Assembly (NCBI RefSeq): GCF_965363235.1
Contig: NC_134845.1
Span: 63,765,261 to 63,829,260 of the forward strand
DNA length: 64,000 nt
From: Mytilus galloprovincialis
Lineage: Eukaryota > Mollusca > Bivalvia > Mytilida > Mytilidae
Direction: 5' to 3'
A model generated the notes under the pieces. The model worked only from the letters and a program-made list of their open reading frames with translations, did not search any database and was not told the DNA's origin. The translations under genes were made by a program, and so were the position numbers. Below are positions 5,461-41,754 of this stretch, piece by piece (within the stretch, counting starts at the first letter, position 1; every line of letters starts with the position of its first letter).

Positions 5461-5810
5461 AAACTTTTTATACAACTTTACTTTATAGATACATACATTT
5501 CAAAATAATATTGTGTTAACATTCGACTAAAATAGTAAACTGAACCAGCATATTGTTTCCAGTGATCAGACTATACATAGAAATATGTACAACGTAAACT
5601 ATTTTCCAATAGAAAGACTTATCGGATACTATAGTCTTAAAAGAGTGAACAGTGGCGCCAATATTACAAGAATTTTATGGGTAAAACTAAATTTATTAAT
5701 TTGAAGCAGTACTCAGAAACTTTATTAATTTCTACATACACTACATTTTCTTCATTGTATGTTTAAATTTCTATTATTGAAGTTTAAACAATGTCTTTAT
5801 ACATTTTTAG

Positions 5811-6279: not shown

Positions 6280-6442
6280 GTTAGTATCCAAATCTAAGGG
6301 GAAAAAGTATAAACAAAAATGCCGAACTTTAAGGAAAATTCGAAATAACTGAAGTTCATAAGAGATTAAATATTCCAAAACAAAAATTTAGTTCAGGTTT
6401 TCCACAGTTTGTAAAAACCATATAATCTAGTCTTTCAGATTA

Positions 6443-6600
6443 AATAAACTCATTATAGATACCAGGATTTAATTTTAAATTTACGCCACACGCGCGTTTC
6501 GTCTACAAAAGACTCATCATCAGTGACGCTCGAATCCCAAACAGTTAAAAAGCCCAAATAATGTACGAAGTTGAAGAGCAATTATTGAACAGGAAGCACT
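6443..6600 (-). repeat. Interspersed repeat R2
   Basis: Carries 'ataccaggattt', 'acgcgcgtttcgtctac', 'agactcatca' and 'gacgct'. A near copy lies at 11050-11190. It sits in the second intron of the BiP pseudogene. It is a short mussel repeat with no coding potential. Confidence 0.65.
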
Positions 6601-6794
6601 CTGACCACACAATAAAGAAACGTTTAAAGTGTTATCATTTTTCATTTTATGCTAATTTTTACTTTGTATAATGAAATCCAAAGTAATGATTTGTGCAGTT
6701 ATTTTTTGCAAATCGATTTCTTGCGAAAAACACTGATGTTATCAAACACAAAATAGCATTTTTGTTGTCTACATTTCTGTCTGTTTATCCTTAG

Positions 6795-7066
6795 AACTGC
6801 AGTAGCTATTTCCTATGGTCTCAATAAGGACGGAGAGAAAAATATCCCTGTGTTTGATCTTGGAGGAGGAATTTTTTATGTTTCCATTTTACTGACTATC
6901 GATAATGGAATATTTGAGGTTACCGCCACGAATGGAGACACTCATGTGGGCGGTGAAGATTTTGACCAAAGAGTTATGAACCATTTTGTAAAATTACACA
7001 GAAAGAAAACATGGAAAAGACATAAGTACGGACAAGCTAAACACGCCCTGCCGTCTCACTGGTATT
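6795..7066 (+). pseudogene. BiP pseudogene, exon-3-like block, truncated
   Basis: Starts after 'tatccttag' and reads [20 protein letters not shown], then [10 protein letters not shown] with the second phosphate loop altered (GGGTFDVS in the intact copy). It ends shortly after a small internal deletion where a foreign repeat begins. Confidence 0.8.
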
Positions 7067-12165: not shown

Positions 12166-13056
12166 ATGTTTTCAACAGGGAAGTTAAATCCGTCGCTAAA
12201 GGCCAGGAAAACAGCTATCATTTCTAGAGGTGAAATGTCGTTATCAAAAAGTTCACAAAATACGGGACAAGTTGAAAAACCTTGTGAAGTATGCGAAGTA
12301 AGTTACCAGATACAGTGGAAGTGTTTTGATTGCAAGCGATATATGTGTAGTGCCTGCAAAGAAACGATCCATCCAAAATTTAAACATGCTGACAAGCACA
12401 AAATTATAAAAACAAAAGATATAACCTCAGAAGATTTGGAGGAAAAGCCTGATTTGACGTCCATTAACTGCACTGTTCATGACGATAAATTTTGCTTTCT
12501 TTACTGTAAGGATTGTGAAGAAGCAATTTGTTTATTGTGTGTTACAAAAACACATACCACACACAACATGATCGAACTGAGTGAGGGATATAATTTGTGC
12601 ATTGAAAAAAATAAGAGCTACTTGGAAATGATTAACAAAACATTTGACATTGATTTATCGAAACTGAAAACCATTGAGTTATCAGAAATAACTAGATATC
12701 AAGATGGAAAAAAGAAGATCATGATGCAGGAAAGTGATCTGATCAATTTAATTCACAGGCAATCACAAATACTAAATAATGAATTTGAAAAACATTGGAA
12801 TATTTTCCAAGATGTTATCAGTAAAGAGGAAACCATTTTAGAACAAAATGTTGAACAAACTAAAACAAGACGTAAAATATTTGATGATGCTGCTAGTTCA
12901 TCCGACGCAAATGAAGCATTCAGAGCTGCAAGAGAAGGGAAACAAAAAATAAACGAGGACAGTGAACGAAGCTATAGTGATATACAACGCCCACCAACTT
13001 TTGTTCCCCGCTTAGTTTCGCCAACAACGATACCATTAGTTCACGGATTGCTCGAG
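12166..13056 (+). CDS. Exon 1 of the fusion gene: two B-boxes and coiled coil
   Basis: B-box 1 reads CEVC, then CFDC, CSAC and spaced His residues. B-box 2 reads CTVH, then CKDC, CLLC and HTTH. A Lys/Glu-rich helical stretch follows. ATG at 12166 is the first in-frame Met. The frame stays open back to 12085, and 'tgtttacaacag' at about 12116-12127 could be an acceptor joining an unseen upstream exon. The exon ends CTCGAG|GTAAGT, and only 11 codons follow before a stop if the intron is not removed. Confidence 0.8.
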
Positions 13057-16000
13057 GTAAGTAATTTATTAAACAACTGCAGGGTATGACACTGGCAATC
13101 AATATGTCACTGGATGTGTTATTTAACATACTAACCTCTTGTCGTCTTACGGAAAATCAGTATTTTCCCTTCTGTTTTTCTTAGTACATGGCTTTTTTGC
13201 ACTATAAAATTCAATAAATGAATGATTTTTCATTGTACACCAACCTTAGAACATGCTCACCCCTTATTGTCCAATGAAAAGTAAGTTGGTTTTTTTTACT
13301 CCTTATTTCGTGCACTTCAAAATGCTGTACATGAACAACTTTTGATTGTAGATTAAATATGAAGAAGAACTCTTAATAACCACTTTAATAAAGTGTACAA
13401 TCACCTGAGACATTTCCTTAGGAAAATAGCCTACTCAGTAAACTTGAAATAGAATAGCATTTTTAAAAATATTTTCAGTATTGCAAATGTTTATCATGGA
13501 AAACAATTGTACAAAACAAACGAAAATGAACTGAGTGCAAAGGTTAAGGTAGAAAAATCTTTTATTCCTTTTTTATACCAGACATTCAAGTCATTTTTTT
13601 CTTACAAGAAAACAATGTCAGAATACTAAACATGAAAAAGCAAAGGATTTTCTTTTTTGGGAAAAAACCACAACAAATGTTCATTCATCAATAAAAAGTA
13701 CGCATCAGATGTTGAATGGTCGTAAATTAAGTTTGTTTGGCTTCAACTAGATGTCAGTAACTGCGAGTACTCTCAAATCGTATAATTCGACCTATTGATA
13801 CTGTTTATAATGCTTTTTTGTTATTTTATATTGATATGGATCTTTTCTATATACCAGCTTTGATTATTTGGAATATCTACTAATTTTCACTTCTTCGTAC
13901 TACATTTGTATGAACACCAAGATTATTCTCTTGAAATATGTACAGGGAAGTTTTAGCTAGCTCTAATTGTATAGTTTAATTGTTGATATTCACCTCAATT
14001 AGTATCTAGTGTTAAATTATGTATTAAAATGACAGAACTTTCTTGGTATTCCTAATTATTAGAAGAATTTTGTACAAATAAGTGGTATACCTAAAACGAC
14101 AAAGTTATTTTTCATTTACCTGTATATATTATTAAAAAAGGTTTTTAAAGTGATTATTTTCGAAGGGTTAAATATTTTGCGGTGGTGTCTTGTCGTGGCT
14201 TTGTTTGGACTTGTTTGTTTGCTTTTTTGGCCTTGAATGTGTTTCCCTTATATTTTATTAACTATGCATTTGCATTCATATATCGCAGATCAAATTTATT
14301 CGTTATTCGTGTATTTATTGACGTTTTTTTATTAAGTTAAGCCTTCCAATTGATATTTTATCATCTGTTTTTCTATGTTGTGTTGTTATGCTATTAAATC
14401 AGAAAAAAGGAGAAGGTTTGGTACCATTAAAACGTTTAATCCCGCTGCAAATGTTTGCACCTGTCCTAGGTTAGGAATCTGATGTACAGTATAGTTGTCG
14501 TTAACTTTGTTTATGTAAATTATACGTGTTTCTCGTTTTTTATATATATTAGACCGTTTGTTTTCCCGTTTGAATGGTTTTACACTAGTAATTTTGGGGC
14601 CCTGTGTAGCTTGTTGTATTGTGTGAGCCAAGGCTCCGTGTTGAAGGCCGTACATTGATCTGTAATGGTTTACTTTTATAAATTGTTATTTGAAAAGAGA
14701 ATTGTCTCATTTACCCAAAATATATTCACATTTCAAAAAACATTGCGTGCTTATAAAAATCAAGAAAAGGAGTAGGGTCATTAAGGCCCAGTTTTGGCCC
14801 AAGAAAATAAAATGTTTGATAACCATTTCAAATTGGCACATAATGTTTAGAAATGCATAGGGTCAAGAAATATCAATTAAAAACAGAATTTTTTTTATCT
14901 GATGACGTCACAATTACGTCATAAAATGTATTGTTTTCACAAAAACGATGTAAAATACAGAATTTATGCAGTTTTCTATCATTATTTCCGTTGAGGAAAG
15001 ATCCTGCGCAGCCGAGAAACAACAAAATAATTTAACAGAAGCTTTATTATAACTATTGGCATAATCTCACCAAATATAAAGTTGTTTCTTGGGTGCGCAC
15101 ATACTTTTTAAATCTAAAATATACTTAAAATTTGATGAAAAAACAAGGAAAATAGCCGAAATTTAACAAATTATGCAAATTAGGTCATGATTCGTTGCCA
15201 TGGTAACTTGTTCGATGTCAATTTTTTTTGTTTTTCTTAGTACCTTATACCTTAGTCAAGTTTTCAGTAATTTAAAAATATGTATGATATCTTTTAAATT
15301 TGCAGTAATTTTTGGGCCAAATAAGGTCCTTATTTCCCCTACTCCTTTGAGGTATGAAAGCATTGAAATTTACCTGAATTAGAAAAAAAACTCAATGTTT
15401 GAACAATTTATTCGTTGTGTCCCAATACATCGAAGTTAGTGCTATTTCATTCCATCTGTTGACATGATAATTACCTATGTTATGCATTCCTTTATTTTAT
15501 TCAATTCAACAACATTATAAAAAGGGAATTAAAAGGTTTAGATATTATATCGGGAAGGATGATTTTGTAGGGTCATTGAAGAGGTAAATATGGTCTAAAT
15601 TGGTCCGAAAATACTTGGTCATGTTTTATGAACACCTAAAACCCTCCCTTGGTCTTTAAATCTTCATAAAACATGACCAAGTATCGTCTAACCTATACGT
15701 AAGCTGTTATCTTTATGTAGTTTCAGGATAGATACAGAAGACAGAACGTTGTGGTTATAGAAATACGCACAAACAATATCAGAGCTGCTCTCTGTTTGAA
15801 ATGCGATTATGACGCCTTCACTAGAAATTCCAAATGTGACCTTGGTATACGTTCTGTGACATATACAAATGCCGATAGAACGTCTATAGATGTCGTTTTG
15901 AAACCAAATGGAAAAGTTCATGGCATTGATTTGAAAAATAAATTGGAGTTCGAAGAGAAAAGATCTGATATATTCAACAACTGGTACTATTTTCAAAACA

Positions 16001-19000
16001 TCGGGGAAATACTTTTAGAAATGAAGGTTAGTAAATATGGTATTGTATTTTGTAATGGAAATATACCAATCAGTGAAGGCAAATGCTTTTTAAAAATCAG
16101 ATTTCAAACTGTCCGTTTAAAAAAAACGTCGTAAATTGCTGGTTTGCAGATTTCTGCATGTGCAATTTAGTTGAGGGATACTTTATATAGAGAATAATAC
16201 ATGGCAAAATCCGTATCATATGTCGTATCATCATGAGACACCAATATCAGCCTAAGAACCTTCATGCCTGGGGGATGATATTGGTCGAGGGTGATACGGC
16301 ATGAGATACGGATTTTGTCATGTTTTATACGCTTTATCATATATTTCAAGAGAAGAGTATTATATTATATGAACTGTTGTCTGGTCCATAGAACTGGGTT
16401 ACCTTCAGTTCTACTTTTGTCTTCTTTCAAAAGCATTAAAAGAACTGCTCAATTACTTATCCGAAGCACCTGGGTAACCTTACAATTTGCGTGCTGTTGT
16501 TTTAAAAATATTTTGTTGATTATTGTATTTTTTTATTGTGTTTTTTTATAGTTGCATTTAGTGTGTCAAAAATATGATAACTTGACGTTCGTGACGTCAT
16601 ATACCAAACAATGACGTCATTCAATAAATTGCGTCACGCCCGAATTACCGTTCTGTTGGACCTATTTTGAGGAAAAATTTTCTTAAGCTTACATAAATAA
16701 AAACTGACTTGGGGTGTGATAAAGGGTATGCGATAAAGGGTGCGCATCAAAGTTGCGCGATATGGATTACACAGCAGGCTATTTATCAAATATACAAAAC
16801 TACTGTATTTACTACTAAAAATATGATAAATTGAAATATTCGCATAGTTTTACATATTGATGTTAGTCCTAATCAAGGCTATCATGGGACTGAGATTGTG
16901 TTTCGCTTTAAGGGCATACGATACAGTTTTGATCCCGTATTTACAGTTTGATGAACATTTCCATATAGGCTATTTTTTGCCTGATTAAATCAAATATGTT
17001 ATAAAAAATTATACCTTCACGTGCTACTTATTGAGTTAAATGAGGTCGAAATTTTGAATATTTGCCAAAAAAATTAGGATTTGTGGCCGTATTTTCCCTT
17101 TGGAAAGAAAACCATAACTTTTTTGTTTTAAAAGATAAACCCAAATTGTTTTTGTCAAATAATTTGTAACTCCTGTTTGTTATAAATAACTTAAAAAGTT
17201 ATGCATTTTTTATTCAGAAATAACTCATATTTATCAAATGGTCATGAATTGAGAAAAAAACGTATTTTTTTGCTGTATATTTATCAACATTAAAAAAATT
17301 GCATTATTAACAGTTTTATAAAATTTGGTTCACAAAATCTCCCTGCAAAATGAAACAAAATGTCGTTTTAAAAAATAGGTGTCCATGCACTCGTTTTCAC
17401 ATTAAATCAGTTTGAATGATAAAAATCAGTCGAAAAATGGATCTTTTCCCGGTATGTCACAGTTTGACGTCTCAAAAATAACATTTTACGTTAGCAACGT
17501 CATTACCTCCCCTGTTACTATATCGTATGCCCTTAATCTTAGCCCATCGAGAACCAAAACACTTTGTGCAACAAAATATATCAATCTGAGTAATCATGCA
17601 AAATAAGACTTTCGTGATGTTCGATGTAAAATTTATAAAAAAAACAGGGTGGTGGAGATTATTCAACAAAGTTTAATAAAAAAAAGATAAAATATCAAAT
17701 TGTGCTCAACTTCCCTCCCTTCCCCTCAACATAAAATAAAAGAATGAATTCAAATTCCTTCTTTTCATTAACTTACAATCACACTTATGAAAACAAGTGT
17801 CTTGGCTCCCCACTTAAAAAAATAAAAATGACTTCCCAATTGGCAAAATTACGTCACAAAATGAATGACAGAACCCCTTGAATTGTTATAGGATATAACA
17901 TGTTCACTCGTGTTGACATATTCTGTAAATACTAAATGCACAAATGATTAGACTACAAGTAATACATGATTTTAAAAATAATTAACGACGATTACGAGAA
18001 TGAGATTGAATAGAGAATAGGTCGTGCATTTAACAGTAACTGAAAAGCAAGACTAAAAATCATTTTTGAAATAAATATTGAACGACCATATGATTCAAGG
18101 GGTGCATTAGTTTGTATCCCTTTTACCACTTGCTTCATATAATCGCAAGTGTGGTCATATCTTTTATTAAACATTTGACCTCTAAATTTTCAAAACGTCA
18201 GCATACATTCTTTTTGTTCCGTCTCTAAGGTCGAGTTTCAATACATTTTCCTAACATTGCATTTTATGTTTATATTAAATCTTCAATCATGTTTAACACA
18301 AACAACGTATCGAAGGTAAATGTATTTTGAACTCTTTTCCCCTTATTTTCAGATATTAAATGTGTGTTCCATGTTTGCGATGTGTTTTAATTTTAATCAA
18401 AGGATCTATTCCATTCAGAATAGAAGACTGGTTTATCTGATTAAACATATTAAGAATATTTGTGTTATCATGTTATTGCAATGCATGCTCCTATTACTTA
18501 ATTCGTACCTTTCGTCAAATGTAAGAAAGGTCCATTAAAATATAAATGACCTGTTGGAGTGACCTGTTCTATGAATAGTTACTATATAATTAATTTATCG
18601 GTGTTGAAATTTGTTCATTTTAAAAGTATCGAAAAAAAGAACTAAAAAAACTCTCAGAGCAGTTTTTTAACATGTTTAAGATTCTGTTTCTTTGGTATAG
18701 TAAAACCTCGTCTGGGATACAGTAGTTAAGCAATTTTTTTTGTGTTCTAACATGAATGGGTCAATGTCACTGCTTTGACATAAATAGCATTGATACGGGT
18801 TTTTTTTTCTGAAAATCTATATATGATGACTCAGCATAAAGTCATATTTCACAATATGAATAGTTTTCCTAAAGCCGAGTATGCAAATTAAATTCAAAAT
18901 ATAAGAATTTATGTATTTAGATTGATACGAAGTGCTTATATTCACTCTTCGCAGTCAATGAAACGCAAAGATCCTTGATTGAACATTGTACAGAGGCAAA

Positions 19001-22000
19001 ACAGAGAGAAAAATCCCCAACCCAATGTTCACAAATCATATAATTTAACCTGTCATGGAAATGATCTTATAACACTGGACACTTTAAATTTGCAAAACAC
19101 TTATTTGCAAATCCGCCGCCACCTCAAATAAGAGCTACAATGTCATGTATATAACCAAAATGTGCAGAATTAAATGGGATTCAATAATTTCATTGGTTTT
19201 CTACTGTTACTATTATATTTATTTTGCTATTTGATATATAAAAACATGGGATTTTCAATATCCCATAGGACAGGGCAAAATCCCATTGGATCGACCATTA
19301 TCCCTTGGGATTTTGGTTAAATTAAATCCCATGGGATTTTTTTGGTCCCATATGATAATTGTAGTCCCATGGGATATTTGTTGCGCCATGGGACAAAAAA
19401 AATCCCATGAGACTATAATTATCCCATGGGATTTTTTATATCCCTTGGGACAAGTTAAAGATATATAAATATAAATAAACAGTAACGTGTATGTTACAAT
19501 GTATTCTTTTTGGTAGTAAATTATTATAACATGAATCTTTTTAATTAAATATCTTTTTTCTTTGGAAATGTTAATTCAACATATTGTTTTATAACTGTTC
19601 AAAACTAAACTTTTAAACAACAAAGCAGATAATGTAAGTATCAATATATGTTTATTTTTGAATTATAGAATACTTTCTTGAAACACTATTATTTACCATA
19701 TGAAATCAATGAAAAACGCTGTTATAAGGCCGAACATACTAGTACTGTAAATTCAAAAAATATTATGTGCATTTATTATTGGGATTTTGTCATTTAAGAC
19801 TAAAATGCGATTTTAATTTTTACAATTTTGAGAAAAAAAAATCCAGTTTAATTCATATAAAATATTTCAAAATGAGAGCTTAAATTATTGCGTTTACAAC
19901 TATATATATGTCGCAATTTTCGCAAAAAATAAAAACCTCACAATAATTTCTGATTTTACAGTAGCTATTTTTAAAAGTAAATCTATTTTTTTCACAATAT
20001 CCCTCCACACAAAACATTAAAAGTTTCTTATCATCCAGCATTGTGTGATCGTTTAGTCCACTTTTTGGTCATTCAGCACAGAAAATTTACATTATTGTGG
20101 TTTCAATATCCTTTGGTATTTAAAAGAACTTCAAATCATTGAATGAGTGATGAAAATAATAGCTGATCCAACTTTTGTCTTTGAAATATTCTGGTTTTGT
20201 TTCTATGTTTTCTTCATTTATTCTAGGTGATGAATGTCAATCCTTCTGAAAAAGAACCAATTAAATCTTAAGTTATGTATTATTCAAAATTGTTTGCATA
20301 CATGTAGCAATAATATGATTTTCAATCAAACAAACTAGGCATTATGGATTTTACTGATGATTAAAGGTTGTTCAGTGTCATCAGTTGCTAACCTCCTACA
20401 TCTTTTGTTCTCTGATGGAGAGTTGTCAATTAGCAATATACCACATCTTCTTATTATCATACTATATAACAATCAATTAATTTATTCTTCTTTATAACAT
20501 TTTGGTATTTTCCCAAGTTATATACATTATATATATATATCATGTAAATATGATCAATGTTAGGCAATTATTATAACATATTCCATTATTCACAAGAATT
20601 TGCAATATATTATACAAAACGCAGACAACAGAAACAATATTTCTTTAAGCTTCTGAAGTTCTGACAGAGTTCAACTTATGTTTAAAATCCCTTAAAATCT
20701 TCGGGCTTATTGGATATTATAACATTGATACAAAAAATTATATTGTTTTATCCTTATTTTGTGTGTTGTTGGCTTGCTGTTTCGTTTTTATATCAGTTAT
20801 ACATACATCAACAATCGTCTTCTTTTATATTAAAATTAAAAATGGGATAAAAAACGAATAACTTATCACCAAGTTCACACACACCAAATTGTGTTTGATA
20901 CTAATTTTAAGACATGTATAAATGTTCCAGACCATATAAGTATTTGGATACGGTCTGGAACATATAAGTATACTCACACAGTCCGACCATATGCATACAG
21001 TCAGACCATTTGAGAATACTTGTACTGTCTAGTACCTGAGCTCGACCAAACATGTCTTTTTATTTCAACTGCAATTAAACTTTTTGTATTAATCTATAAA
21101 AGATTTCAGTTATGTTGATCTGTAATGTACATTTGTTTCTAATAAACTTGACCAACTTCTTAAAATTGGACAGACTGTACACGTACAGTCTAACATCTCA
21201 TATGTTCTGGAACATAAACATGATTAACAAGCATTCGACAGGATGTCATGCTAAAATTTCATTAATATAAGTACTAAATTTTGAGTATATACATGTAAAT
21301 CCACAAGCTACTTACTGAAATTCATGGCAAACACTCACCAAAAACTTAAAGAGGATACAATTTAAAGGAAGGACTGGACAGATGAATGCACAAACACTAT
21401 TTAAACAGAGCATAAAACATACCAAAAACAAGATGTTTTACATTTATCCTTTGGAAGCAGGAAAATTGAAAAATTTTTTTTTCTTTCGCTGCTGTCCATG
21501 ATAAAAACTTTAAATTAATTCATGCAAAATATGAAAATCTACAAAGGTAGGACCTTGAACCTCAGCTTATCCACATTTTGACTTTTGAACTGCGTATTTG
21601 TTCTTTTAATCTTGCTGACAATCTAATCACAAAAAAATGATAAAAACATAATTCTAGATTAACTTTGTGTTTTCATTTTTGTTGGTACAAACAATTTTTC
21701 CAAACTTTAAACGTAAGCATCATCACAAATAATGAGGTCATACTAACCTCCGAAATATTTAAACAAACCAAGATTATTACTTGATTTAGATGTTGTTATG
21801 AATTAATAGCATTGATACTCTTATTTTTGAAGACCATATATGTCTTTTGCATACTTATATTCCTTTGTACAAGAGTATGCATATTAAGATGGATTATGAG
21901 GACTTAAATGTTAGATTAGCAAGATAAATTTTACGGTTTCTCAGCTCCATGTGTACAATTTGAGAGTTTCTTGCAATACTGTGTATTCTGATATTTAGAA

Positions 22001-25000: not shown

Positions 25001-28000
25001 AAATCCCATGTTTTTATAAATCAAATAGCAAAATAGATATAAAAGTAACAGTAGAAAACTAATGAAATTATTGAATCCCATGTAATTCCGCACATTTTGG
25101 TACTGTAGCTCTTATTTGAGGCGGCGGCAGATTTGCAAATTAGTGTTTTGCAAATTAAAAGTGTCCAGTGTTTTATGTTTATAACGGTCTTTTGCAAAGA
25201 AAACAATAACCTTGCTTTCGAAGTCAGTTCTTTTAAATGTTTAATGGATGATATATGGTTTTATAAAGATAAAAGTTCTAAGAGGGCCATTTGAGGCAGA
25301 GTTTTTTTTTTACTTTGATAGATAAATAGGAATAAAGAAAGATGTTGACTGGAGACAGAGGCAGGATTGAACGCTTCATATAATCTTGAATATTGGAATG
25401 ATTATCTATTGACCATTAAATTTATAGTATTCTGAAATGTTTCAATTGGTTATCAGTAAAGACAACAGTAGCATACTGCTGTTCAAACCTCATAAGTCGA
25501 TAGAAAAAAACTTATCCGGGCTACATACTAATACTGAGGGAAACGTATTAAATATAAGAGGAGAACAATGACACATTATCAAAATGTAACACACACATTC
25601 TAAGCATTAGACAAAATCCGATGAGAATAACAACTATAACATCAAAACTAAATACTTGAACTTGGGAAAGAAAATACTGTGACACGTCTGATAATAATGT
25701 GAATTCACACTCAAATATAAGAGGGAACAAACGACACAAAAGAAAAACTACGTTAAAATGTAATACACACAGAAACGATCAATAATATGATAATGGCCAT
25801 ATTCCTGACTTGGTACAGGGCATATGTTTAAAGAAATAAATGGTGTGTTGAACCTGGTTTATCAGAATAATTTCATATATATACAACGTGCATATAGGGT
25901 AAGCTGATAGAAATTAAAGTTTTGTTTTCAAATTCCTAAAACATTGAACTAGATTGACTGTATCAAAGGTACTGTTAAAGAAATTAAAACTAGTCGACCA
26001 AGCATAAACAAACAAGGTCAGAAGGTTCAGTATGGGACAGCATCGTACATTGAGTTACTGAGAAACAATTATGAGTTACCAAGTTTGACAATGCATGGTA
26101 ATAAAAAATGAAAGCTAAGTCTACAGAAAAAGTAAGAAAAAAATAGCCTTAGGATAACGACTTATCAACACACCTGGATATTTAGTTCTATTAAAATAAC
26201 GACTCTGGATGTTTTTCAGTCACATGGCAACTGTTGTTATGTAAGAGAAAGTAATGTTTCTTGAAAGGAGTTATCTCCCTTAGACCATTTTGAATAAAAA
26301 AGAAATCAACTTTACTCAAAATCAGGAAAAGGCTACATATTTTATTTTTTGATATTTTTTAAAGAAAATTGTTCTCTTTAGTTTGCATAAAACCATTTTC
26401 CTTAAAACATCCGGTCTAAGGAGAAAATAGTGAAATTCTTGTACTGCAAAAAGTGGGGAAAGTTCATATTTTCCCAATATTCAATAAAGCACCAAGAGGA
26501 ACATACTGTGTTCAATGGTTTTATATTACAAATTTAGTTCTTACTTCACAAGATCTTTCAACACAAAAAGTATCGTGGATTTCTGTGATACAGTGCGTAT
26601 CCTTATTTCATTATTTTGCATGCATGATTCTTATCCAGACTGCTAAAAAGTTATGTCTCTATGAGATGCAACCTACAGATAAGAACTTGGAAGCAGTATG
26701 ACAAAAAAAAATTCTAATAGTATTCTTAATCTCCGCAAAAGAGGCGTGAGAATCAGCTGTATTTTCAAAGTGCATTCTTTAAGAAACATTTAATTTTTAA
26801 ATTAATTTGTAAATATTTTAGGATGAATTAACCACGGACATTTGGCTGATAGAATCAAGAAATGATGTTGGAGGCACATCAAAGAAAATGAAAGCATTAG
26901 ATGTTTATACAGCTGTAATGAGTTACATAATTGAAAATATTTCAAAGTTCATGTCAAGAAGAAAAGAAAACTATATGGACGATATTTTTTTGGTGCTAAC
27001 CGTTCCACGTATTTGTGGAACTCAAGGAGAACAGTTCATGCACGATGCTGCAAAAAAGGTAAACACCATACTATAACGCATGCGTGCAAGTTAAGGTAAC
27101 ACGATACCGAATGACGTTACGCCATGAGTTATCGTTCCTGACGTTATCAAATAACGTTCACACATGTATAAGCCAATGCAGCGGGTTTTGTGTAGCATTT
27201 TTAACGGTAACTTTCCCTAGATGCAGAGTGCCGAGAGTTTTGATGCAATACGTAGCGGTTATTTGACATAGATTGTTTTATCGTTTTCCGGTAATCATTC
27301 TGCTTATTGTTAATCTTTAAAAAGTATTACTTTACTTTTTAAATATTCTGTTTCTTTTGATATTTAAGCATCTGCACGTTTTATCTATATATGTTCTTAT
27401 ACATAACAGGCATAGTTTTATCACTTTTTTTTTATTCTTGGTATAGATATAGGAAGATGTGGTGTGAGTGCCAATGAGACAACTCTCCATCCAAATAACA
27501 ATTTTTAAAAGTAAACCTTGGTTTTTTTTTGCAATAAGTATTAATTCATGTTTCACGCCGTATCCCCATAAAATTTTGTTTTGAAATTAGAAATCTAATT
27601 CATAGAAGCTTAGGATGATGTGTGAAAAAACGGGGAATTTTACAACTATTAATTCGTTTTAAAATGGTCATCAAAAACACCGCTCGGACAAAATTGAAAT
27701 TTATTTGGATGAGAATACGGATATAATTAGGGGGAAAAGCACAATACAAGCAGACGTTGAAAATCATACAGAAAATAGTTTGTTTGTACTGAATGTAAAA
27801 AAGTGGTTATTTAGCCAAATAACTTTTCCTGTTTTTCATGTGTAAACAGTCTCTGAAATTCATTCGTCTGTACAGAGTAAATTCGATATAGATTGGAAAT
27901 ATTTTAAAATACAGTGCCAGCTTTGTAATCGTATAAACCACGTCTACTCAGGACGGACAGCAACATCGGAATGAAGCATTAGAAAGTTAACGAAGGCTGA

Positions 28001-31000
28001 GAAATACATGGGCACTTGATTCGGCAGAAAAAAAATAACAAAATTCAGGTTCCGTTACAGTCTGAATAAAGCCAGCCCCGAGTATCCACTTGCGTCTACA
28101 AACGCAAGTTGATAGTTGGGACTGGCTGTAGTCAGACCGGTTCCGTGTTCCATGATTCCGTTATAATTTTTTTCTCGAAATTTACATGCAAACGGCTGAC
28201 TTTTTATTATTCAAACGGCAAGAGACTGTAAAAAAGCTAGATCTTGAAATCATTTAGATTTTATATTCGTGTTAATTTACGCTTGCATGGGTATTCGGTG
28301 TCTTTTTAGTTTTGAGTTGGAAATAATGTACATGTACAAGTTGGGAGACAAAACGATTGAAAGAAAATTAACAAAGTTACCTTTTAGGGCTCTGAGGGCC
28401 ATATTGCTCGCATAATAGGCGTGGGAAAAGGCCCGGAAAGTTTCTTTCTTAAAAGTAGTTTTTAGAACAAGTATACAAGTATATATATACATGTATAGCG
28501 TCAGTTTAAATTTTCCCTTCCATCATCGTGGATGCCCTGCCTCTATTGCAAAACCTACCTATTGTATATATTGTTAACTTGTTCTCGTCCTGAACATGCA
28601 TGAACTATTTTCCACTGAACGTTAACCAACCAATAATCAAAGCTATCAATCCTACAATTTACCCCCGTCACTTGGAACTTTAGTTGTTAAAATTAAAAAA
28701 AATTCGACAAAGTTTAAACGCAGACCATGAGGAAGACCAAAATTGAAAAGTTACGCAAAACTAAATAGCTACGTTACCGCTTGCTCATTTTGGAAGTGGG
28801 TAACATGAGACTTTATCTGTAAAAGTACAAGTACAAATAAAAAAACATGTGTACATGTACATGTTATTTGTACAAAGGTTGGCTGATAGAATGATAAATA
28901 GAGATATGTGATATATGCAATTTATAAGATAGCAACAGCTGGGCATTAATTAGCTGACATCAACACCTTGAAGACATCAAGAAAATCGTGACTAATGCTA
29001 ATTGGAATAGTATCTTTACACTTCTTATTTGTAGTTTTAGTAAACGTTGGAAAAGTTTGAGTATGTGTAGTATAATTGTCACAGTAACATTTCAGTCTCT
29101 TGGTAAATATTAGTTCAAGTCTTAAAACTTTTGCTCTTCTCTAGAAAATTCAAACCCGATTATGAAATATAAGGAGATGCGGTAAAATTTCCAATTAGTC
29201 AAGTTTCCACCAAAGACGAAATGACGGAAATGCTATCCTTCTTACATTGCTACTACATTTCAGATCTCCAACTTACCATTCCATTATATGAACTGGATAT
29301 TCAAAAATATGCATTGTCACCAAATTACTTATGGAGCACGTATCATCATATTGTTTTACATTTGTCCGTTCGACCGTTAATCCCGCACATAGTATATATA
29401 TAGAGTTAATTCGGCTAATTATTTAGAACTACAGTAGTTTTGCTTCAGCTTTAAAACTATGTACCTGGTGTTACTACTCATATTATAGGTGCGCATATCG
29501 TCTGGAGTTTCTTTTTTGTTTCATGACAGGCTGCTGGATTAGGCATTTTGATAAAAATACAAAGGCACACAGAGTACAGACTCCGGCTTACATCTGATAC
29601 AGGTTGAATTTCAAGCTGGAACTTTTAAATTTCGCAGTTGTTTTACTTATGTAAAGAATGCATATATGATCTCAAGATTTGTTATGTAAATAATTTTTTC
29701 ACAAATGACAGAATGTTGAAATTTGAATCAACCCGAATAATTCAGTCCCTCCCCGTAATCGATCTCTCCTACTTACTTAATGTAGTAAGCGGAATATAAC
29801 GACTGAATTATTCGGTTTAACAGTTTGCAAGGTTTGTCCGACTTGCTGAGAAAACAAGTAACATATTTACACAACGCAGAGTCACGGTACACTATACTAC
29901 ATGTATTGTATGTACCAAGTCAAGAATATGACAGCTGTTTATCATTCTTTTGATGTTTTTCAGCTTTTGATTTCGTCATTTGATAAGGGATTTTTTCGTT
30001 TTGATTTTTTCTTGGAGTTTTGTTATTTTATTTTTTGTGGAATGTGTATTTTATCATGATCATTATTTTTCCTCATAACTTTCACAAAATCTTTTTTGAC
30101 TGGTGCATCAAATGTGTCTTTTATAAACAACTGTTTTCAAAATTGTATTGTATCGTCCCGAACATGCATGAACTATTTGCCACTGAACGTTAAACAACCA
30201 TCAAACCGAGCAATTAAAAAACTGTTAATGCAGTGATGATACCACCATTGTCTAATCTGATGGAGTTAAAAATCAGTAATTCGGATGAATCTCACGTGAA
30301 ATGTTTTATTTAATTTTCACGTAAACTTAACAAAAATCTGAAGGTATTTTTTATGGTTTTAATCAAATTTTAGAACAAAGATGTTATTTAAATAATTTTA
30401 TTTCAAATATTTACGTGAATTTAACGTGTACAAAATTCCGGTGATTTATGCATGAACTATTATCATAAGATTCACATGGAACCTGTTCACGCAAGTTTCA
30501 AGTCATGATATGCTCGTTTGATGTGAAAATCGGACGATATTGATATTAATTCATGAGTGAAATTCCATGTGCAGGACGAAATAAAATTATATCTGATTCA
30601 GTAGAATTTTATATTGCATTACTAGGAACTTTACGACAGTCGACAGGGGAAATGAAAATTAAAATATACTCATTCAGATCCCGTCACATATTTTTTTCTC
30701 CATTTCTCTGAGAAGGAATAACGTTATATTCCGTACACCATATGGTCACACGTTTTTGGTCAAATTCTAGGCCTATCGATCAACTTTGAAGCCATTTATT
30801 TCAAAAACAAGGATGGTGACATATGAGTTTCTATACGTGTATGGATTCACTATGCAATCCTGGATATTATGTTAGTTTTTTGTTTTTCTCCGTATATAAG
30901 AATATAGCCATCCATTCGAAAATCTAAAAAGGTTAGCCGAAAAAAAGGCATTTCCCCTATATACCTAAGTAAATTTGTCGCCAAAATTGACGTTTTCCTA

Positions 31001-34000
31001 TGAAAATTACAAAAAAACAAAAATGGTGACCCCCATTTTTTATTACATATTCCGATGTAACTCGATTCAAAGTACACGTATGCCAAAAATTTTGGAAATC
31101 GGGAGATATGCCATTCGGTATCGTGTTACCTTAAGAGAAACAGTTATAATCAGTTAACTCATGTTCTTATATTAAGAAAGAAATTTGTTCCACGTAACAT
31201 ATCTTTTTACCGAAAATACTAGTTACTAGATGAATTTAATTTCTGTACTTTTATATATGCGTAGATATTTTAAAATTCCCAGTCATTTATATGTTCTTTC
31301 CGTTAAAGTATATCCATACAAGCAAATAAACTCATCATAGATATTAGGACTAAATTTTGTATACATGCAAAACACCTTGAGCGATATGATACTTTATATC
31401 AATGAAAATGATTTGGAATAGTTGTGAAATTTAAAATATTCTTTTCATCCATTCATTGTCCACAAACCTCAAACTGAAACAAACTTCATATTTCGTTACA
31501 TCTCGAACTTCAATGAGTTATATCTATTGGCTGTGTTAGTGCTTAAAATGGAATTTAAATGGAAATAGTGAAAAGTTTGCAAATTAAGTAGTAATTTAAA
31601 AGTAGATACTTTTATCCTTGCAGGCAAACTTTTTAAACGAACAGATTACTATTACTTCAGAACCGGATGCTCTCGCTGTATATTGTGAATATATGTACGG
31701 TAAACTTCAACTTAAAGGGCGCGGTACACACCAATACAAAGGTTGTAAATATTTGATGTTTGATGAAGGAGGTAAGAAAATTATGCATTACACAATTGTG
31801 TACAAATAAATTTTTGGACAGTTTTCCGAACAAGTCGATTGATCAAGCAGACAAAGCTTTCAACAATATTGTTTTATATCTAAAATATTATTTGGAACGT
31901 CTTACTAAAGAACTTATAATTTTCCGCAAAACAGGCATACCTACATGTACATATACTTTACATAATTGACAAAATCACAAAAATCAAATCATATTACACG
32001 TACCGATTTTCCAATTTTCAGATGTAGAACATGATGGAATGAACCTGAGTTTATAGCACTCACTTGTATAATAGTCGCATCAAATTCCGTTATATTTACA
32101 ACGATATGTGAACAAAACAGAAATAATAGGTAAAATAGTCAACTGGCAGTCGATATTCAAAAAGGTATTAATTATGCAGTGCCCCTACATGCATGTTCAT
32201 TTGTATTTGTATTCATATGGATTTCATACGGAATCATTTGAAGAAGCATCTTTTATAGATCTTTGATTTCACTTTCATCAGATATACTGATGATGTCCTA
32301 TTACTCAATAAAATCCATTTCTGTGAATGATTACGTCACATACATGTTGTTCTTTTATATCCCATGACAAGGTTTGGGGGAGCAATTGCAAACTTATTTA
32401 ATTTCACTATTTTGTATGTGTTTGTTCCTAGTAATGGGTCTGTAAGTACATTTTCTGTTTGTTTGTTTGTTTGTTTGTTTGTTTAACTACATTATGGTTA
32501 TTTCGTTTGTTTTGTTGTTCATTTTGTCATTTCGGGGCGTTTGCTACAGTGGTAGCATCTATAATTATTTCTCATATTGTACTGGATTTTATCTATTTAT
32601 CTAGTAAAGCAAGCAATAATAATATGCAAAAGAATTCACCTCCATACCATAAAGTCTCTTCTTTTTCGCTTATACTAACAAATCGTCTAAAATAAAAATA
32701 AATTTAAAAGGGACAAATTTTAATATCATATTTACCTGAACATATCTAGATGTTGGTATTTAGTCAAATCACAACCGGGATTTGTGATAATCAAGTTTAA
32801 AATTTCCAAGAAGTTTCGTTAACAAAATATATCCTAGAATGGAAAGCTTATACGCAAAGGTTTTTTTACATCACTGGGTCGATACCTCTGCTGGTGGACT
32901 ATCAGTCCCCGAGGGTATCATCAGCTCAGTAGTCAGTGCTTTGGTACTGAGATGATTTAACAAACTTAACTTAAATTGTCTGATTATAAATTTTTGAAAT
33001 TGCTATGAAACTAAGGTTTCAACTCCCTCAGGCAAAGTTGGCTTAAGACGAATTTGGCTATTTATTTTAGGTATTTTAGACATATAGCTCTTCAACGATT
33101 TTCGGTACTTATACATCTTCGGATTTTAAATGTTTGGCTTTGAGCGTTCCTGATGAAGGTAAATCCAGAAAAGCGCTTCGGACGCAATAAATCATAAAAC
33201 GTGTTGTTTTCCATTTTTTACATCACTGGGTCGATACCTCTGCTGGTGGACTATCAGTCCCCGAGGGTATCATCAGCTCAGTAGTCAGTGCTTCGGTACT
33301 GACATGATTTAACAAACTTTACCTAAATTGTCTGATTATAAATTTTTGAAATTACTATGAAACTAAGGTTTCAACTCCCTCAGGCAAAGTTGGCTTAAGA
33401 CGAATTTGGCTATTTATTTTAGGTATTTTTGACATATAGCTCTTCAACGATTTTCGGTACTTATACATCTTCGGATTTTAAATGTTTGGCTTTGAGCGTT
33501 CCTGATGAAGGTAAATCCAGAAAAGCGCTTCGGACGCAATAAATTATAAAACTTGTTGTTTTCCATTTTTTTAAAACAGTTATTGTCCGAACTATACCTG
33601 CTTTCACTTTAGGTCTTCCTCATACTTCATTTTTTCCGCTATCGATGTGTATGTGTAAAGGTAACATTACTCTACGAGATGAATCATAGAGTGCATATCT
33701 GGAAACCAGTAGGTGAACAAATCAAAATATCTATGGATATTATATATTTCCTCAAAAGATGCGTGTTTTGTGAAACAACTGTAAAAAGTAAAACCTTTAA
33801 TAATAACTGTATTAAATTTTATTTTTTTATATGATACGAACTGTATCGTTTAAACGATTTGAAGGTTTATTGAAAAAAATACCGAACTCAAAGTTAATTT
33901 CAAAACGGAAAATATCTTATCAAAGGTAAATGTTTGAATTAAACTGCTCGATCTGACTCGCATTGATCATTCGAACAAAAATTAATATCGAATTATAACT

Positions 34001-36641
34001 TCATTTAAAAAGTTTAGCAAAGTTTTTTTCTAACTGGTCTGTAACATAAATTACAAGTATTTTAAAAAAACTAAAAAACAGAAGCGATGCGCTTTTTAGT
34101 TTTCTCCAATATTTTTTTTCAGACACAGTATATCCCATTTGCAAAATCCTTTCTAACTCCTTGCATTATTGTTATACTCAGAGGTAGGCTAACATTTCAG
34201 GACTTTTCTATTTTTTTAGTAAAGAGTCTGAATGAGATAAAATGTATATACTTTCAGTATTGCAATCAATGTTATGTACGCAATGATGGATTGGTTCACC
34301 GATCGTTTGTTCATTTTAGGAGAGACTTTGTTTTCGGTTTCTCTTTAGCACAGGTACACCAGAAAAGTCCTCTTATCGTGTTGATAGGGAACTATTTATG
34401 TTTGAGCTTTCTCTGCTCTTAGTAAGATTTTTTTTCTCAATTAACATAAGACTAAGATCACAAATAGACTCTAAAATACCCATTAGCATCTGGCAGGCGT
34501 ACTTAATTATTCATCAGCCATTTTTAGCGTTTTTAAACGAAAAGTTTAATTAGTATTATTATAGCAAAAAATGAACTATAATTGGACGATACAATCACAT
34601 CAATATCCGTTCGCTCAATCGATTTTTTTTTTACAGTTTGATTAATATTAAAAATATATTTTGGTTTTTAAGCGAGTGTCTGAAACTTATATATTTTTAC
34701 TGTAAAATCTACAAATATCTTCTGTCATTGTAAATCCCCAAGGTTTTGAGAGTGATATTTGAATAAAAGTCCCCAAAAAAGTTTAAAAGTATTTTGATTG
34801 ATTCGATTAAAATTAAATGATTCTGTTTTTGTTTCTGTTTTGCCTTTCTAGCGTATATTTTTATAAGTCTTAAATCATTTGGATTCATGAAAGGCGTTTA
34901 AAGTGGTGTAATAGTGTCAATTTGTGTTACACCTGGCTATCATAATTTCAAAATTATGATGAAGTGCTATAAGGGACGAAAGATATCAAAGGGACAGTCA
35001 AACTCATAAATCTAACATAAACTGACAACGGCATGGCTAAAAATGAAAAAGACAAACAGACAAACAATAGTACAAATGACACAACATATATAACTAAAGA
35101 ATAAACAACACGAACCCCACCAAAAACTAGGGGTGATTTAATGTGCTCCAGAAGGGTAAACAGATCCTGCTCCACATGTGGCACCCGTCGTGTTGCTCAT
35201 GTGATGACAAATCCGGTAAATAGTCTAATTCGGGAGGTTACATTCATGAAAGGGACGGGGATTGTAGTTACGACGTAAGGAACATATTCGATATCATTTG
35301 TTAAACGGTTATTCCATAACGGTCAACTAACTCGTGATGGAGTCCGTAAAATTAACGAAGGGATGATTTCAACTTCACCATTCGGAACTCTTGGTTTAAA
35401 AGCTTACTTGTGAGCAGCAAACCTCTATCAAAAAATCATGATAGGAAATGCAAGCACGGGAATATCATATCAATTGGGATATATATACCCCGTATGCAGA
35501 TGCTGCTGGAATGTTGCTACTGAGAAATGGAAAGTTCACAATTAAAAAGCTGAAATCCAATCTTTTGGCGCAAAGTTTTGTTATCAGCCGACCTTCATTG
35601 TCAATTTCTAGATACAAGTCAAGATATGAGGCCGACCTAACTGTATATATAACCTCATATTAATAAAGAAACAAGTCGGCAAGTGGAGGGGCACAATTTG
35701 TTCCCATTGGAATGCCGACAGTCTGTTGAAAAACACATCCTCCGAACGAAACAGATATGTTGTCAATCAAGAAATCAAGCATCCGGAAAATATCAGTTTC
35801 AGAGAATTTTTTGATTGAATCAGAGTGATCCTTTACAAAGAATGACTATCCCTTCCTATGACAAGATACTTGTATCTACGTTGGCCATTTTTTTTTATGA
35901 AGCAAAGCAATACCAACTCTTTCAATTTGTCTTATTTAACTATGCAGAAACTCGTTTTGTAATCTTTTCACCGGTAGAAATATGTTTCCTGCTCCATAAT
36001 TGTTGGAATATTGAATTTCTAGTTATAATTATTGTTTATCTTCAGATGGAACGACGGACATTACAGTGCACGAAGTGACATGGCCAAGATTTGTGAAGGA
36101 AATATACCGCGGTACTCGCTGGCAAAGGAACTCGTTAATTGTTGAAGAGTTTTGTTCTTTTTTGAATCAGTTGTTTGGCTATGATGTTATAGGAATTCTA
36201 AAAGAAAATATGGAATATATTGAGTTTGTACGCCGTTTGGAATTGAAAATTGAAACATTTAGCCAAAATTCCACTAAGATTGTTAGTGTATGGATTCCAG
36301 TTGTTCATTTGATACCTTTTACGACTGAACCATTCGAAGAGCTTGTACAAAAATCAAGTTACAACAAAAAAGTAGGTCTTTTGAATGATAAATTAAGAAT
36401 CACTGCATCTTTATTCAGATCATTTTTTGAGAATGGAATGAGATATGCTTCAGAAGTACTGGATACATTTATTCCAGCAATCAACAAGGAAATTACAAGA
36501 GTGTTTGCTGTGCATGATTGTTCAGTGTCACCTATCCTTACAGATGTAATTAAGCAAAAACTTGGACCTACAGTTGAAGTTATAATTCTAAAATCAAACA
36601 ATGCAGTGCTTGAGGGGGCATGCGTGTATGGCTTTCAGTAA
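12166..36641 (+). CDS. Double B-box / coiled coil / HSPA12-like Hsp70 fusion protein
   Basis: Five exons join in frame: 12166-13056, 15727-16026, 26822-27058, 31624-31771 and 36046-36641. Phases are 0, 0, 0 and 1, and all introns are GT-AG. The model protein is 723 residues. Residues 40-80 form B-box 1 and about 102-138 B-box 2, each with a full set of Cys/His zinc ligands. About 145-265 look coiled-coil. From 298 on the sequence follows the HSPA12 type of Hsp70 ATPase fold. Of the three nucleotide-binding motifs, the first is replaced by EIRTNN, the second is kept as DEGDGTTD, and the adenosine motif GGxxxSP reads HDCSVSP. The protein stops at VLEGACVYGF, about 100 or more residues before the usual HSPA12 end. 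No RING is seen. A role as a B-box scaffold or sensor in stress or innate immunity is inferred. The alternative is that exon 1 belongs to a separate B-box gene. Confidence 0.7.
14380..14720 (+). repeat. R1 interspersed repeat, full length, diverged
   Basis: Contains 'gtttaatcccgctgc', 'ctgtcctaggttaggaa', 'gaccgtttgttttccc' and 'ttgaaggccgtac'. It is collinear with the 44830-45180 copy and lies in intron 1 of the fusion gene. Confidence 0.65.
14766..15348. mobile_element. MITE-like element with 12-bp inverted ends
   Basis: The ends AAAGGAGTAGGG (14766-14777) and its exact reverse complement (15337-15348) bound 583 bp. Similarity continues inward less perfectly ('attaaggccc' against 'ggaccttatttgggcc'). 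There is no ORF, so this is a non-autonomous DNA transposon type. Confidence 0.65.
15611..15684. other. Perfect 22-bp inverted repeat 42 bases before exon 2
   Basis: Arm 15611-15632 (starting ATACTTGGTCATG) is the exact reverse complement of 15663-15684, with a 30-base loop. It ends 42 bases upstream of the exon 2 start at 15727, so a stem in the pre-mRNA would sit close to the branch and pyrimidine region. Confidence 0.7.
15727..16026 (+). CDS. Exon 2 of the fusion gene: HSPA12-like N-terminal lobe
   Basis: The acceptor is 'gtagtttcag' and the donor ATGAAG|GTTAGT, 100 codons in phase 0/0. It reads NVVVIEIRTNNIRAALCL, which aligns with the first strand pair and phosphate loop of HSPA12 (VVVAIDFGTTSSGYA). 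It then reads LKPNGKVHGIDL and NWYYFQNIGEILLEMK, which align with the HSPA12 stretch ending in FKMKL. The aspartate and the Gly-Thr-Thr of the loop are missing. There is no suitable start codon, so an upstream exon is needed. Confidence 0.75.
16193..16327. repeat. Long imperfect inverted repeat
   Basis: The arm from 16193 (ATACATGGCAAAATCCGTATC) pairs with GATACGGATTTTGTCATG ending near 16322. Inner segments 'caccaatatcag' and 'gatattggtc' pair as well. It is probably a fold-back repeat in intron 2. Downstream (16330-16720), 'gacgtcat' sites and 'gttctgttggacctatttt' belong to another repeat that I cannot delimit. Confidence 0.5.
16912..17532. mobile_element. TTAA-flanked MITE, 621 bp
   Basis: The ends GGGCATACGATACAGT (from 16912) and its reverse complement with one change (to 17532) are flanked by TTAA at 16908-16911 and 17533-17536. 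A TTAA target duplication is the mark of piggyBac-type elements. There is no transposase ORF. Confidence 0.75.
17540..19068. other. Intron 2 stretch without recognised features
   Basis: AT-rich sequence. A short shared segment ('attcaaggggtgc' near 18090 against 'accccttgaatt' near 17875) forms an inverted pair about 220 bases apart. No coding exon was found. The frame at 18320-18538 is low-complexity and unsupported. Confidence 0.35.
19240..19455. repeat. Array of imperfect CCCATGGGA palindromes
   Basis: Roughly eleven units built on tCCCATGGGAt, with variants such as CCCTTGGGA, CCCATAGGA and CCCATATGA, lie about 15-25 bases apart. The right arm at 24955-25015 carries a shorter version. The palindromes sit just inside the long inverted ends, a common place for transposase or host-factor binding sites. 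Confidence 0.75.
19470..22100. other. Interior of the 6.1-kb unit, no gene
   Basis: AT-rich with no supported coding region. It includes an R1-like fragment at about 20380-20450 ('gatggagagttgtcaatt', 'accacatcttctta'). A patch at 20930-21215 has repeated 'gtctgacc/ggtctgga' sites, including a TTCCAGACC...GGTCTGGAA inverted pair. Confidence 0.4.
22100..22200 (+). repeat. Short mussel repeat tail
   Basis: Contains 'gttgttgtctctttgac' and 'tttccacttcccattttat', the same tail seen at 46270-46345 (opposite strand context) and 59330-59420. Confidence 0.5.
22370..22500 (+). repeat. R4 repeat (G-run/'caactatatg' type)
   Basis: Contains 'aaggggggttcccaac' and 'ttcaactatatgttcccatt'. Related copies lie at 48548-48685 (minus) and 58930-59045. 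From 22500 to 23575 only minor repeat scraps are seen, such as 'gggggcccactgactg' at 23170. Confidence 0.5.
23580..23735. repeat. Large hairpin with arms of about 69 bp
   Basis: Arm 23580-23648 (starting AACTGTATTGTATTTGAAGC) is the near-exact reverse complement of 23666-23735. It has a few mismatches and a 17-base loop ('gcgacgcaaagcggaga'). Pairing extends a few bases outward. The transcript would fold into a long double-stranded stem. Confidence 0.85.
25530..25875 (-). repeat. Mussel interspersed repeat ('attcctgacttggtacagg')
   Basis: Carries 'aatatgataatggccat', 'attcctgacttggtacaggg' and 'gttgaacctggttta', a repeat block I recognise from mussel sequences. Other parts of 25175-26820 show no exon. 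The frame at 26453-26701 lacks any HSPA12 similarity. Confidence 0.5.
26822..27058 (+). CDS. Exon 3 of the fusion gene
   Basis: The acceptor is 'taaatattttag' and the donor GCAAAAAAG|GTAAAC, 79 codons in phase 0/0. It reads VYTAVMSYIIENISKFMSRR, LVLTVPRICGTQGEQFMHDA and AKK. This aligns with the HSPA12 segment with WVLTVPAIW and QFMREAA, the helix and strand after the first lobe. Confidence 0.8.
27095..31130. mobile_element. TTAA-flanked 4.0-kb element filling intron 3
   Basis: The ends GGTAACACGATACCGAATG (from 27095) and its exact reverse complement (to 31130) are flanked by TTAA at 27091-27094 and 31131-31134. These 19-bp inverted ends plus TTAA fit the piggyBac superfamily. No transposase ORF is visible, so it is non-autonomous. 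It starts 37 bases after the exon 3 end and makes up nearly all of the 4.57-kb intron. R1 (27440-27520) and other repeats are nested in it. Confidence 0.8.
28060..28137. other. 78-base imperfect hairpin
   Basis: The arms GTCTGAATAAAGCCAGCC... and ...GGCTGTAGTCAGAC pair over about 35 bases with roughly six mismatches, around an 8-base loop (TCTACAAA between ACTTGCG and CGCAAGT). The size is like a microRNA precursor, but it lies inside a transposon and may be a fold-back repeat. Confidence 0.55.
31624..31771 (+). CDS. Exon 4 of the fusion gene
   Basis: The acceptor is 'tatccttgcag' and the donor GGAG|GTAAGA, phase 0/1. It reads NEQITITSEPDALAVYCEY, the counterpart of HSPA12 EQLLIALEPEAASIYC, and ends in YLMFDEG, the start of the second phosphate motif that is completed by exon 5. 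Confidence 0.85.
31772..32865. other. First part of intron 4
   Basis: No exon is recognised. A (TGTT)n microsatellite runs from 32456 to 32484. Confidence 0.5.
32866..33570 (+). repeat. Tandem duplication of a 352-bp repeat (R3)
   Basis: Two head-to-tail copies, 32866-33217 and 33218-33570, are nearly identical; only a handful of changes are seen by eye. Each carries 'catcactgggtcgatacc', 'tatcatcagctcagtag', 'ttcctgatgaaggtaaatcc' and 'cgcttcggacgcaataaa'. Diverged relatives lie at 45205-45340 (+) and 61700-62100 (-). Confidence 0.9.
33571..34954. other. Middle of intron 4, no gene seen
   Basis: AT-rich sequence. The frame at 34087-34422 has no recognisable domain and its composition matches the surrounding intron, so it is not annotated as coding. 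Confidence 0.4.
34955..35830 (-). mobile_element. RT element fragment, about 220 bp upstream of exon 5
   Basis: On the minus strand, 35830-35690 reads FGGCVFQQTVGIPMGTNCAP, a polymerase motif. After an internal deletion come the YGVYISQL region and the non-coding tail ('ggcacccgtcgtgttgctc', 35170-35200). This is the most informative copy of the RT family in the window. It is inactive. Confidence 0.65.
36046..36641 (+). CDS. Exon 5 (last) of the fusion gene
   Basis: The acceptor is 'tttatcttcag'. The split codon completes DEGDGTTDITVHEV, close to the HSPA12 motif DAGGGTVDITVHEV. It continues with FLNQLFGYDVI, then LLNDKLRITASLFRSFFENG (HSPA12: KLRFDADLFKSFFD). The adenosine-site counterpart reads VHDCSVSP instead of GGFSESP. 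It ends VLEGACVYGF then TAA at 36639-36641. AATAAA signals lie at 36730 and 36743. In HSPA12 the protein normally goes on for about 100 residues or more after this point. Confidence 0.8.
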
Positions 36642-36749
36642 TACAATTTTACAACTTGCAATGTATCTTAAAACATTAGCTTTTCTTTAATTTGCATTAA
36701 GTAATCTCTCATTCTTGATCATTCCTAACAATAAATCGCAATAATAAAT

Positions 36750-41035: not shown

Positions 41036-41754
41036 GATTACACCATTTATGTTAAAACTTGAATATTTTGTGCTTGTTATCATCATCTGATAACATGAAA
41101 TAGTTAAATATTTTCGTTATCATAAAAATGAGCTTGATTTCTGATAATTTAAATCTATATATTCAGATAAGTATTTATGTGTGTGTTTGAATCAACCGTA
41201 TACTAGAGATATCTATTTTATATATCTCTGGTTATACACAATCGAGTAATAGAAATAAATTTTATATAAATTTGAATATCAACCTGATGAGGAATATTTG
41301 ATCATATTTTTTTTTATTTAAGATAAAAAATTGATACTGATAACATTTGGAAAGTAACGTTCATACCTTCGGAGTAGTTTTAGTTTAACCTAAGATAAGC
41401 TTTGATCAAATTTAGCAAAATATAATATATGTATATTCATAGTCCAATCGACGACTAATCATTTGCTAACGGGGTTTTAAATGCTTCGTCCATTTTAAAA
41501 CAAATTATTTCTCGACTTTCGCTAGCAGACAATTATGAATCGTCTCGAATATTCCAAACCTGGATCTTCCCTTTTATGAATACCTCAAGAAAATTAAAAC
41601 ATCGAGAAAATACATCGAATGGAAAATTGTTGGATAACAGAAATACGTACTGAACTCCAGAGGAAAATTCAAACCAGAACGTCCCTTAACAAAAGAAAAA
41701 ATCAATAGCTCTAACACATCAAACAAATCGAAAGCAACTCTCATATTCCTGACT

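Follow-up and report, generated by a model that had tools for sequence, protein, structure and literature searches.

A predicted Mytilus gene joining a B-box/coiled-coil module to a degenerate HSPA12-type nucleotide-binding domain

The Mytilus galloprovincialis DNA analysed here (a stretch of 64 kb, referred to as the window) carries on its plus strand a predicted gene of five exons, in which a TRIM-like B-box module is followed by a nucleotide-binding domain (NBD) of the HSPA12 type. The exon model, rebuilt from the letters of the window by splicing, gives 723 codons and a TAA stop, with phases 0, 0, 0, and 1 and GT-AG borders on all four introns, just as the original prediction had read it. 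In that prediction exon 1 spanned 12166-13056. However, the three relatives with a complete N-terminus all begin at MSLSK, which corresponds to position 12235; this makes the 23 codons from 12166, absent from the relatives, doubtful, and a protein of 700 codons from the ATG at 12235 appears more likely than one of 723 from the ATG at 12166. Exon 1 (12235-13056) encodes B-box 1, B-box 2, a helical stretch, and a 'TFVP' linker, as assigned from Pfam, zinc-ligand patterns, TIF1-beta structures, and P0001, a M. californianus protein described below. It ends in phase 0 at GAG, followed by the splice donor GTAAGT (13057-13062). The donor had been called strong, and the exact word GAG|GTAAGT is found a single time on the plus strand of the window, the one strand scanned, at 13054. 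The frame of exon 1 stays open for 10 codons beyond this donor and then meets a stop, and intron 1 contains 12 AATAAA or ATTAAA words, which make termination after exon 1, or shorter transcripts, possible.

Exon 2 (15727-16026) starts the NBD; its phosphate-1 motif is degenerate, with EIRTN where canonical proteins have DFGTT, and the lysine of the FKMML loop is lost. This exon lacks a start of its own, as had been claimed: it is preceded in frame by ATG TAG TTT CAG, with the stop two codons off, and its sole methionine is its second-last residue. The six bases TTTCAG (15721-15726) would be exonic if an upstream acceptor were used. At the exon 1/2 junction P0001 carries two additional residues, FQ, that P0002-P0004 do not have there; this fits an acceptor 6 nt upstream (15720|15721), so that exon 2 may start at 15721 instead of 15727. 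Exon 3 (26822-27058) continues the NBD and is 73% identical to P0001 and 45% to the canonical HSPA12A-like protein P0006 (E 1e-10). Exon 4 (31624-31771) takes the NBD up to the phosphate-2 motif (FDEG|DGTTD), where it ends in phase 1, and exon 5 (36046-36641; 82% identical to P0001) encodes the remainder of the domain and ends in GFQ-stop. The first AATAAA 3′ of the stop (36730-36735) is a possible poly(A) signal, others being found at 36743 and 37239. The possibility of a missing exon was rejected after P0001 had been mapped on the window. Intron 4 also holds two tandem 352-bp units, 97% alike (32862-33571), a diverged relative of which (72-74%) lies at 61737-62096; scans of the window for tRNAs, Rfam families, and tandem repeats gave nothing bearing on the chimera.

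The N-terminal module is recognized by Pfam (zf-B_box in exon 1, 3.2e-10), and the zinc-ligand patterns of both B-boxes are complete in all four members of the group that have B-boxes. A full TRIM (RBCC) module is not borne out: a scan of all contiguous frames of the window, which an intron-split RING would escape, gave no RING pattern, and the models of the relatives begin just before B-box 1. Among solved structures exon 1 comes closest to two entries of TIF1-beta (E 1e-5 and 2.3e-5), presumably RING/B-box/coiled-coil constructs, the former match covering residues 4-197 of the 274 encoded by the exon. The remaining 19 of 21 matches are weaker, mostly TRIM/Midline B-box entries and some of them chance (MCM7). 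The stretch that follows the B-boxes is probably a coiled coil, judging from the periodicity of its hydrophobic residues, which is helix-like: of 1000 shuffles, 11 to 47 reached the observed value in four overlapping segments within residues 130-270, against 145 to 984 in three NBD controls. The protein thus resembles the TRIM family, especially TIF1-beta/TRIM28, in having B-box 1, B-box 2, and then a helical stretch, and differs from it in that no RING was found and that the C-terminal domain is of the HSPA12 type, which is not known to occur in TRIM proteins.

A search with exon 1 returned P0001-P0003 and, from M. galloprovincialis, P0012 (29% identity, E 2e-24) and P0013 (24%, E 2e-8), and a profile of the fusion proteins matched the latter two at E 2e-35. 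P0012 and P0013 have the same N-terminal module with the FVP linker and, as in the window protein, no RING in Pfam. Both ligand patterns are present in P0012, while P0013 fails both even though Pfam gives it one B-box. Their C-terminal halves are different: that of P0012 has no similarity to HSPA12 and no named domain in Pfam, and in that of P0013 a weak match to NHL is seen instead (0.0032, below the cut-off); a beta-propeller may be present in this half of both. P0003 and P0012 align at 31% identity over 280 residues and the alignment stops at the FVP linker, which places the fusion breakpoint shortly after the usual end of the module. From these comparisons, exon 1 is predicted to be a RING-less TRIM-like module common to Mytilus B-box proteins with other C-terminal halves.

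For the second half of the protein, four HSPA12 halves were aligned and used as the query; the 11 proteins obtained included the canonical HSPA12A-like Mytilus proteins P0006-P0010, together with P0011, a fragment without a Mytilus name. The NBD is 30-36% identical to P0006-P0010, and hhalign against these five proteins gave a probability of 100% (E 6.7e-76, 422 columns), with homology along the whole length of the domain; the HSPA12-type assignment of the original prediction is thereby supported. This assignment came from the Mytilus homologues, the silence of the domain libraries being explained by the divergence of the branch. The domain search proposed for the 723-residue model recovered the B-boxes and, whether exon 2, exon 5, or the half as spliced was given to Pfam, no Hsp70 domain; Pfam and NCBIfam on the NBD half alone gave nothing above the cut-off, and DUF5894 and Schlafen AlbA_2, both below it, were taken as chance. 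As to an Hsp70/actin fold, the NBD half compared as a single sequence with solved structures had chance matches only, a profile of four fusion sequences alone reached DnaK structures only at E 0.029, and a profile that took in canonical HSPA12 sequences reached DnaK at 1.7e-6.

The motifs expected to bind the nucleotide are altered in every fusion sequence that covers them, with the exception of the connect-1 glutamate. The Hsp70 contacts assigned here to the phosphate-1, phosphate-2, connect-1, lysine-loop, and adenosine motifs are those ascribed to them in Hsp70 proteins generally, and the M. edulis protein P0005 was included in the counts where it covers the motif. Phosphate-1 (DFGTT) has become EIRTN, KIHPN, EIGTN, EIGAN, or EIRAN, with loss of the aspartate in 5/5; the FKMML lysine is replaced by G or W in 6/6; and phosphate-2 (GGGTTD) reads GDGTTD, GDGKTD, or VDGTTN, so that GGG is changed to GDG or VDG in 6/6. 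The CGGxWGG loop is two residues shorter and without its glycine pairs in all six, and the adenosine motif VGGFS appears as VHDCS, FGDCS, VGNCS, or VGECS, its second glycine being lost in the five sequences that cover it (the sixth is P0005). On the other hand, the connect-1 glutamate (LEPEAAS) is kept in 5/5 and the first aspartate of phosphate-2 (DQGGG) in 3/5. The canonical proteins, in contrast, keep DFGTT, FKMML, GGGTTD, CGGxWGG, and VGG, the exceptions being DFGTA in P0007 and FFHSGG for FDQGGG in the fragment P0011. P0006-P0010 also differ from the window protein in having no B-box in Pfam and in continuing after the NBD. All five fusion sequences compared end one residue past GF/GL, whereas the other six run on for 100-152 residues; P0005, whose end is an RNA ligase, was left out of this comparison. 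No remnant of the HSPA12 C-terminal part came to light downstream of the gene when the window was searched with the six canonical tails, which matched nothing in it (best E 0.88). The HSPA12 half is, as far as can be judged from the sequence, an NBD alone, without its C-terminal region, and this NBD is probably a pseudo-ATPase.

These features bear directly on the mechanism first proposed for the gene, in which sensing of a ligand, or of its own ATP state, by a functional HSPA12 domain drives assembly through the B-boxes. The homology of the NBD along its length speaks for it, and the retention of the connect-1 glutamate and, in part, of the phosphate-2 aspartate makes some nucleotide binding possible. 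Nevertheless, the loss of the phosphate-1 aspartate, the FKMML lysine, the phosphate-2 GGG, the CGGxWGG glycine pairs, and the second adenosine glycine, together with that of the whole region after the NBD, makes ATP-linked ligand sensing unlikely. What survives of the proposed coupling is a single protein with B-box and HSPA12 halves in the same order as in three named Mytilus species; the working Hsp70 domain does not.

The presence of the same architecture elsewhere was explored with the whole model against approximately 5.8 billion proteins (7318 candidates, E up to 0.001), and four proteins, all from Mytilus (P0001-P0004), were returned; as searches of this kind need shared 5-residue words, the absence of matches outside Mytilus says little. 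P0001 (704 aa) is 77% identical to the window model over 97% coverage, has a B-box, and is named "heat shock 70 kDa protein 12A-like", a name that covers the HSPA12 half alone. By tblastn it is collinear with the five exons of the window (61-82% identity, E 2e-20 to 4e-139); its residues 1-279 match 12235-13065 at 80%, and the whole protein spans 12235-36638, the two residues 375 and 376, where exons 2 and 3 meet, being the only ones left unmatched. Identities for exons 1 to 5 are 223/273, 59/98, 58/79, 39/49, and 164/198, exon 2 being the least conserved. With the same architecture and the nearest position on the tree, the extra FQ at the junction notwithstanding, P0001 is very likely the orthologue of the window gene. 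With the same query, a tblastn search of plasmids turned up a single weak match, in Streptomyces (E 1e-5). P0002 (M. trossulus, 698 aa) and P0003 (M. coruscus, 724 aa) are 48 and 43% identical to the window model, respectively. Over its first 80 residues P0002, a paralogue, shares 97-100% identity with the window (12235-12474), and in later 40-residue blocks only 23-75%, a pattern suggestive of gene conversion or of an exchange among paralogues. P0004, also from M. coruscus (406 aa, 55% identity over 27%), begins within the coiled coil and lacks the part encoded by exons 3 and 4; it is probably an incomplete model, in which the join of coiled coil to NBD is kept.

Thus, the B-box and HSPA12 order for which the original prediction suggested a search was found in database proteins of M. 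californianus, M. trossulus, and M. coruscus. In P0001-P0003, B-box 1 and B-box 2 come first and are followed by the helical stretch and then by the HSPA12 domain, so that four of the five members, the window included, run from B-box to NBD. This makes the join probably real, and not the result of reading two neighbours as one. It is important to note that the relatives P0001-P0005 are database gene models, to which errors of method may be common. In this sense, a merger, by the reader and by annotation pipelines alike, of a B-box gene with a neighbouring HSPA12 gene whose first exon was not seen has to be considered. P0005 (519 aa) joins an NBD of the fusion branch to a C-terminal part of RNA ligase 1 (RLIG1, 8.7e-36), being either a misjoined model or another rearrangement, and it suggests that mussel models can be wrong and merge neighbours; the open frame past the donor and the poly(A)-like words of intron 1 would also be compatible with a short B-box-only form. 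However, the repetition of the order in the models of three species, the lack of a start in exon 2, and the position of the sole plus-strand GAG|GTAAGT exactly at the join make such a merger improbable, and the B-box/HSPA12 join is taken, on the predicted proteins, as an architecture common to Mytilus. No mention of such a fusion was found in the titles and abstract openings searched, a set mostly without subscription papers and preprints. PMC12692333, in which the motifs diagnostic of each Hsp70 group, among them Hsp70-12, are placed in the ATP-binding domain, does not contain the word 'fusion'.

On an unrooted tree of 12 NBDs (no outside sequences; P0005 cut to 250 residues), the five fusions and P0005 are separated from the six canonical sequences by one fully supported branch. 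Within the fusion branch, the window protein groups with P0001 and P0004 (support 89/89), and P0002 with P0003 and P0005 (99/98). As the model of P0005 is without a B-box, two changes of the fusion label, and not one, are required on this tree. The simplest reading is that one fusion was followed by a duplication before these species split, P0005 being probably incomplete or misjoined. The coding sequence also shows signs of constraint. When the window sequence was evolved neutrally to 78% protein identity, none of 200 simulations remained free of stops (mean 9.3 stops, minimum 2), a test that loads all the divergence on one lineage (the tree gives branch lengths of 0.23 for the window and 0.10 for P0001) and in which the annotated relatives are open frames by construction. 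That turnover of HSPA12 and B-box genes has left the chimera as a decaying product without function, as might be argued from the lost motifs and following part of the NBD, the low conservation of exon 2, and the many HSPA12 transcripts of M. edulis in PMC8774603, is very improbable, given five exons without stop or frameshift against 0/200 in the simulations, intact B-box ligand patterns in 4/4, and the persistence of two paralogue groups.

The reading that we favour, with somewhat better than even confidence, is one functional gene encoding a RING-less TRIM-like scaffold in which an HSPA12-type NBD, now probably a pseudo-ATPase head, stands in place of the usual C-terminal half. Its basis is the order of the exons, which recurs in database proteins of several Mytilus species, together with the erosion of the nucleotide motifs and the absence of the region that follows the NBD in HSPA12. 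As in TRIM proteins, the coiled coil would form an antiparallel dimer and the B-boxes would let dimers associate, so that the dimeric scaffold might bear two degenerate Hsp70-type heads. Each pseudo-ATPase NBD could then bind a protein or another ligand with no ATP cycle involved. As no RING is present, ubiquitin ligase activity would not be expected of the protein alone, and it might act as an adaptor, a decoy, or a partner of other TRIM-like proteins. A broader proposal, more tentative and held at somewhat less than an even chance, is that mussels have turned an Hsp70 NBD into a non-ATPase recognition head, giving a lineage-specific class of immune or stress adaptors in which it takes the place of NHL or PRY-SPRY domains. 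If this were true, a TRIM-like scaffold would have acquired an Hsp70-type ATPase domain for use as a binding module, and some of the mussel 'HSPA12' genes counted by name would be neither ATPases nor complete HSPA12 proteins. The proposal, if true, would also have consequences for transcriptomic work in which HSPA12 transcripts are interpreted as regulators of stress. The expansion of HSPA12 in mussels, which the original prediction had assumed for bivalves, is in print: it is referred to, from an earlier study, in PMC8774603, which also describes many HSPA12 transcripts strongly expressed in M. edulis under heat and low salinity. On the expansion of TRIM proteins in bivalves, likewise assumed there, the literature listed comprised one paper on Aplysia.

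Other features of the window deserve mention in their own right. Adjoining the chimera on the minus strand, a one-exon frame of 577 codons (39383-41116) has a weak B-box match (0.0025, below the cut-off) and an NHL match (0.0001, above it), and it appears as a B-box/NHL-type gene. Further on the same strand, three exon-like frames with Pfam Hsp70 matches are found at 43829-47683, the last ending in KSEL; the only one compared with solved structures (47132-47683) is closest to BiP/HSPA5. Two of these Hsp70 exons recur, in an incomplete and diverged form, on the opposite strand at 5805-7051 (+), with 5805-6287 being 76.5% like 47621-47128 and 6793-7051 being 80% like 46764-46515. Finally, a reverse-transcriptase frame (PF00078, 3.4e-22) beside a 403-codon frame without a Pfam match, at 603-2865 on the minus strand, is probably a retroelement.
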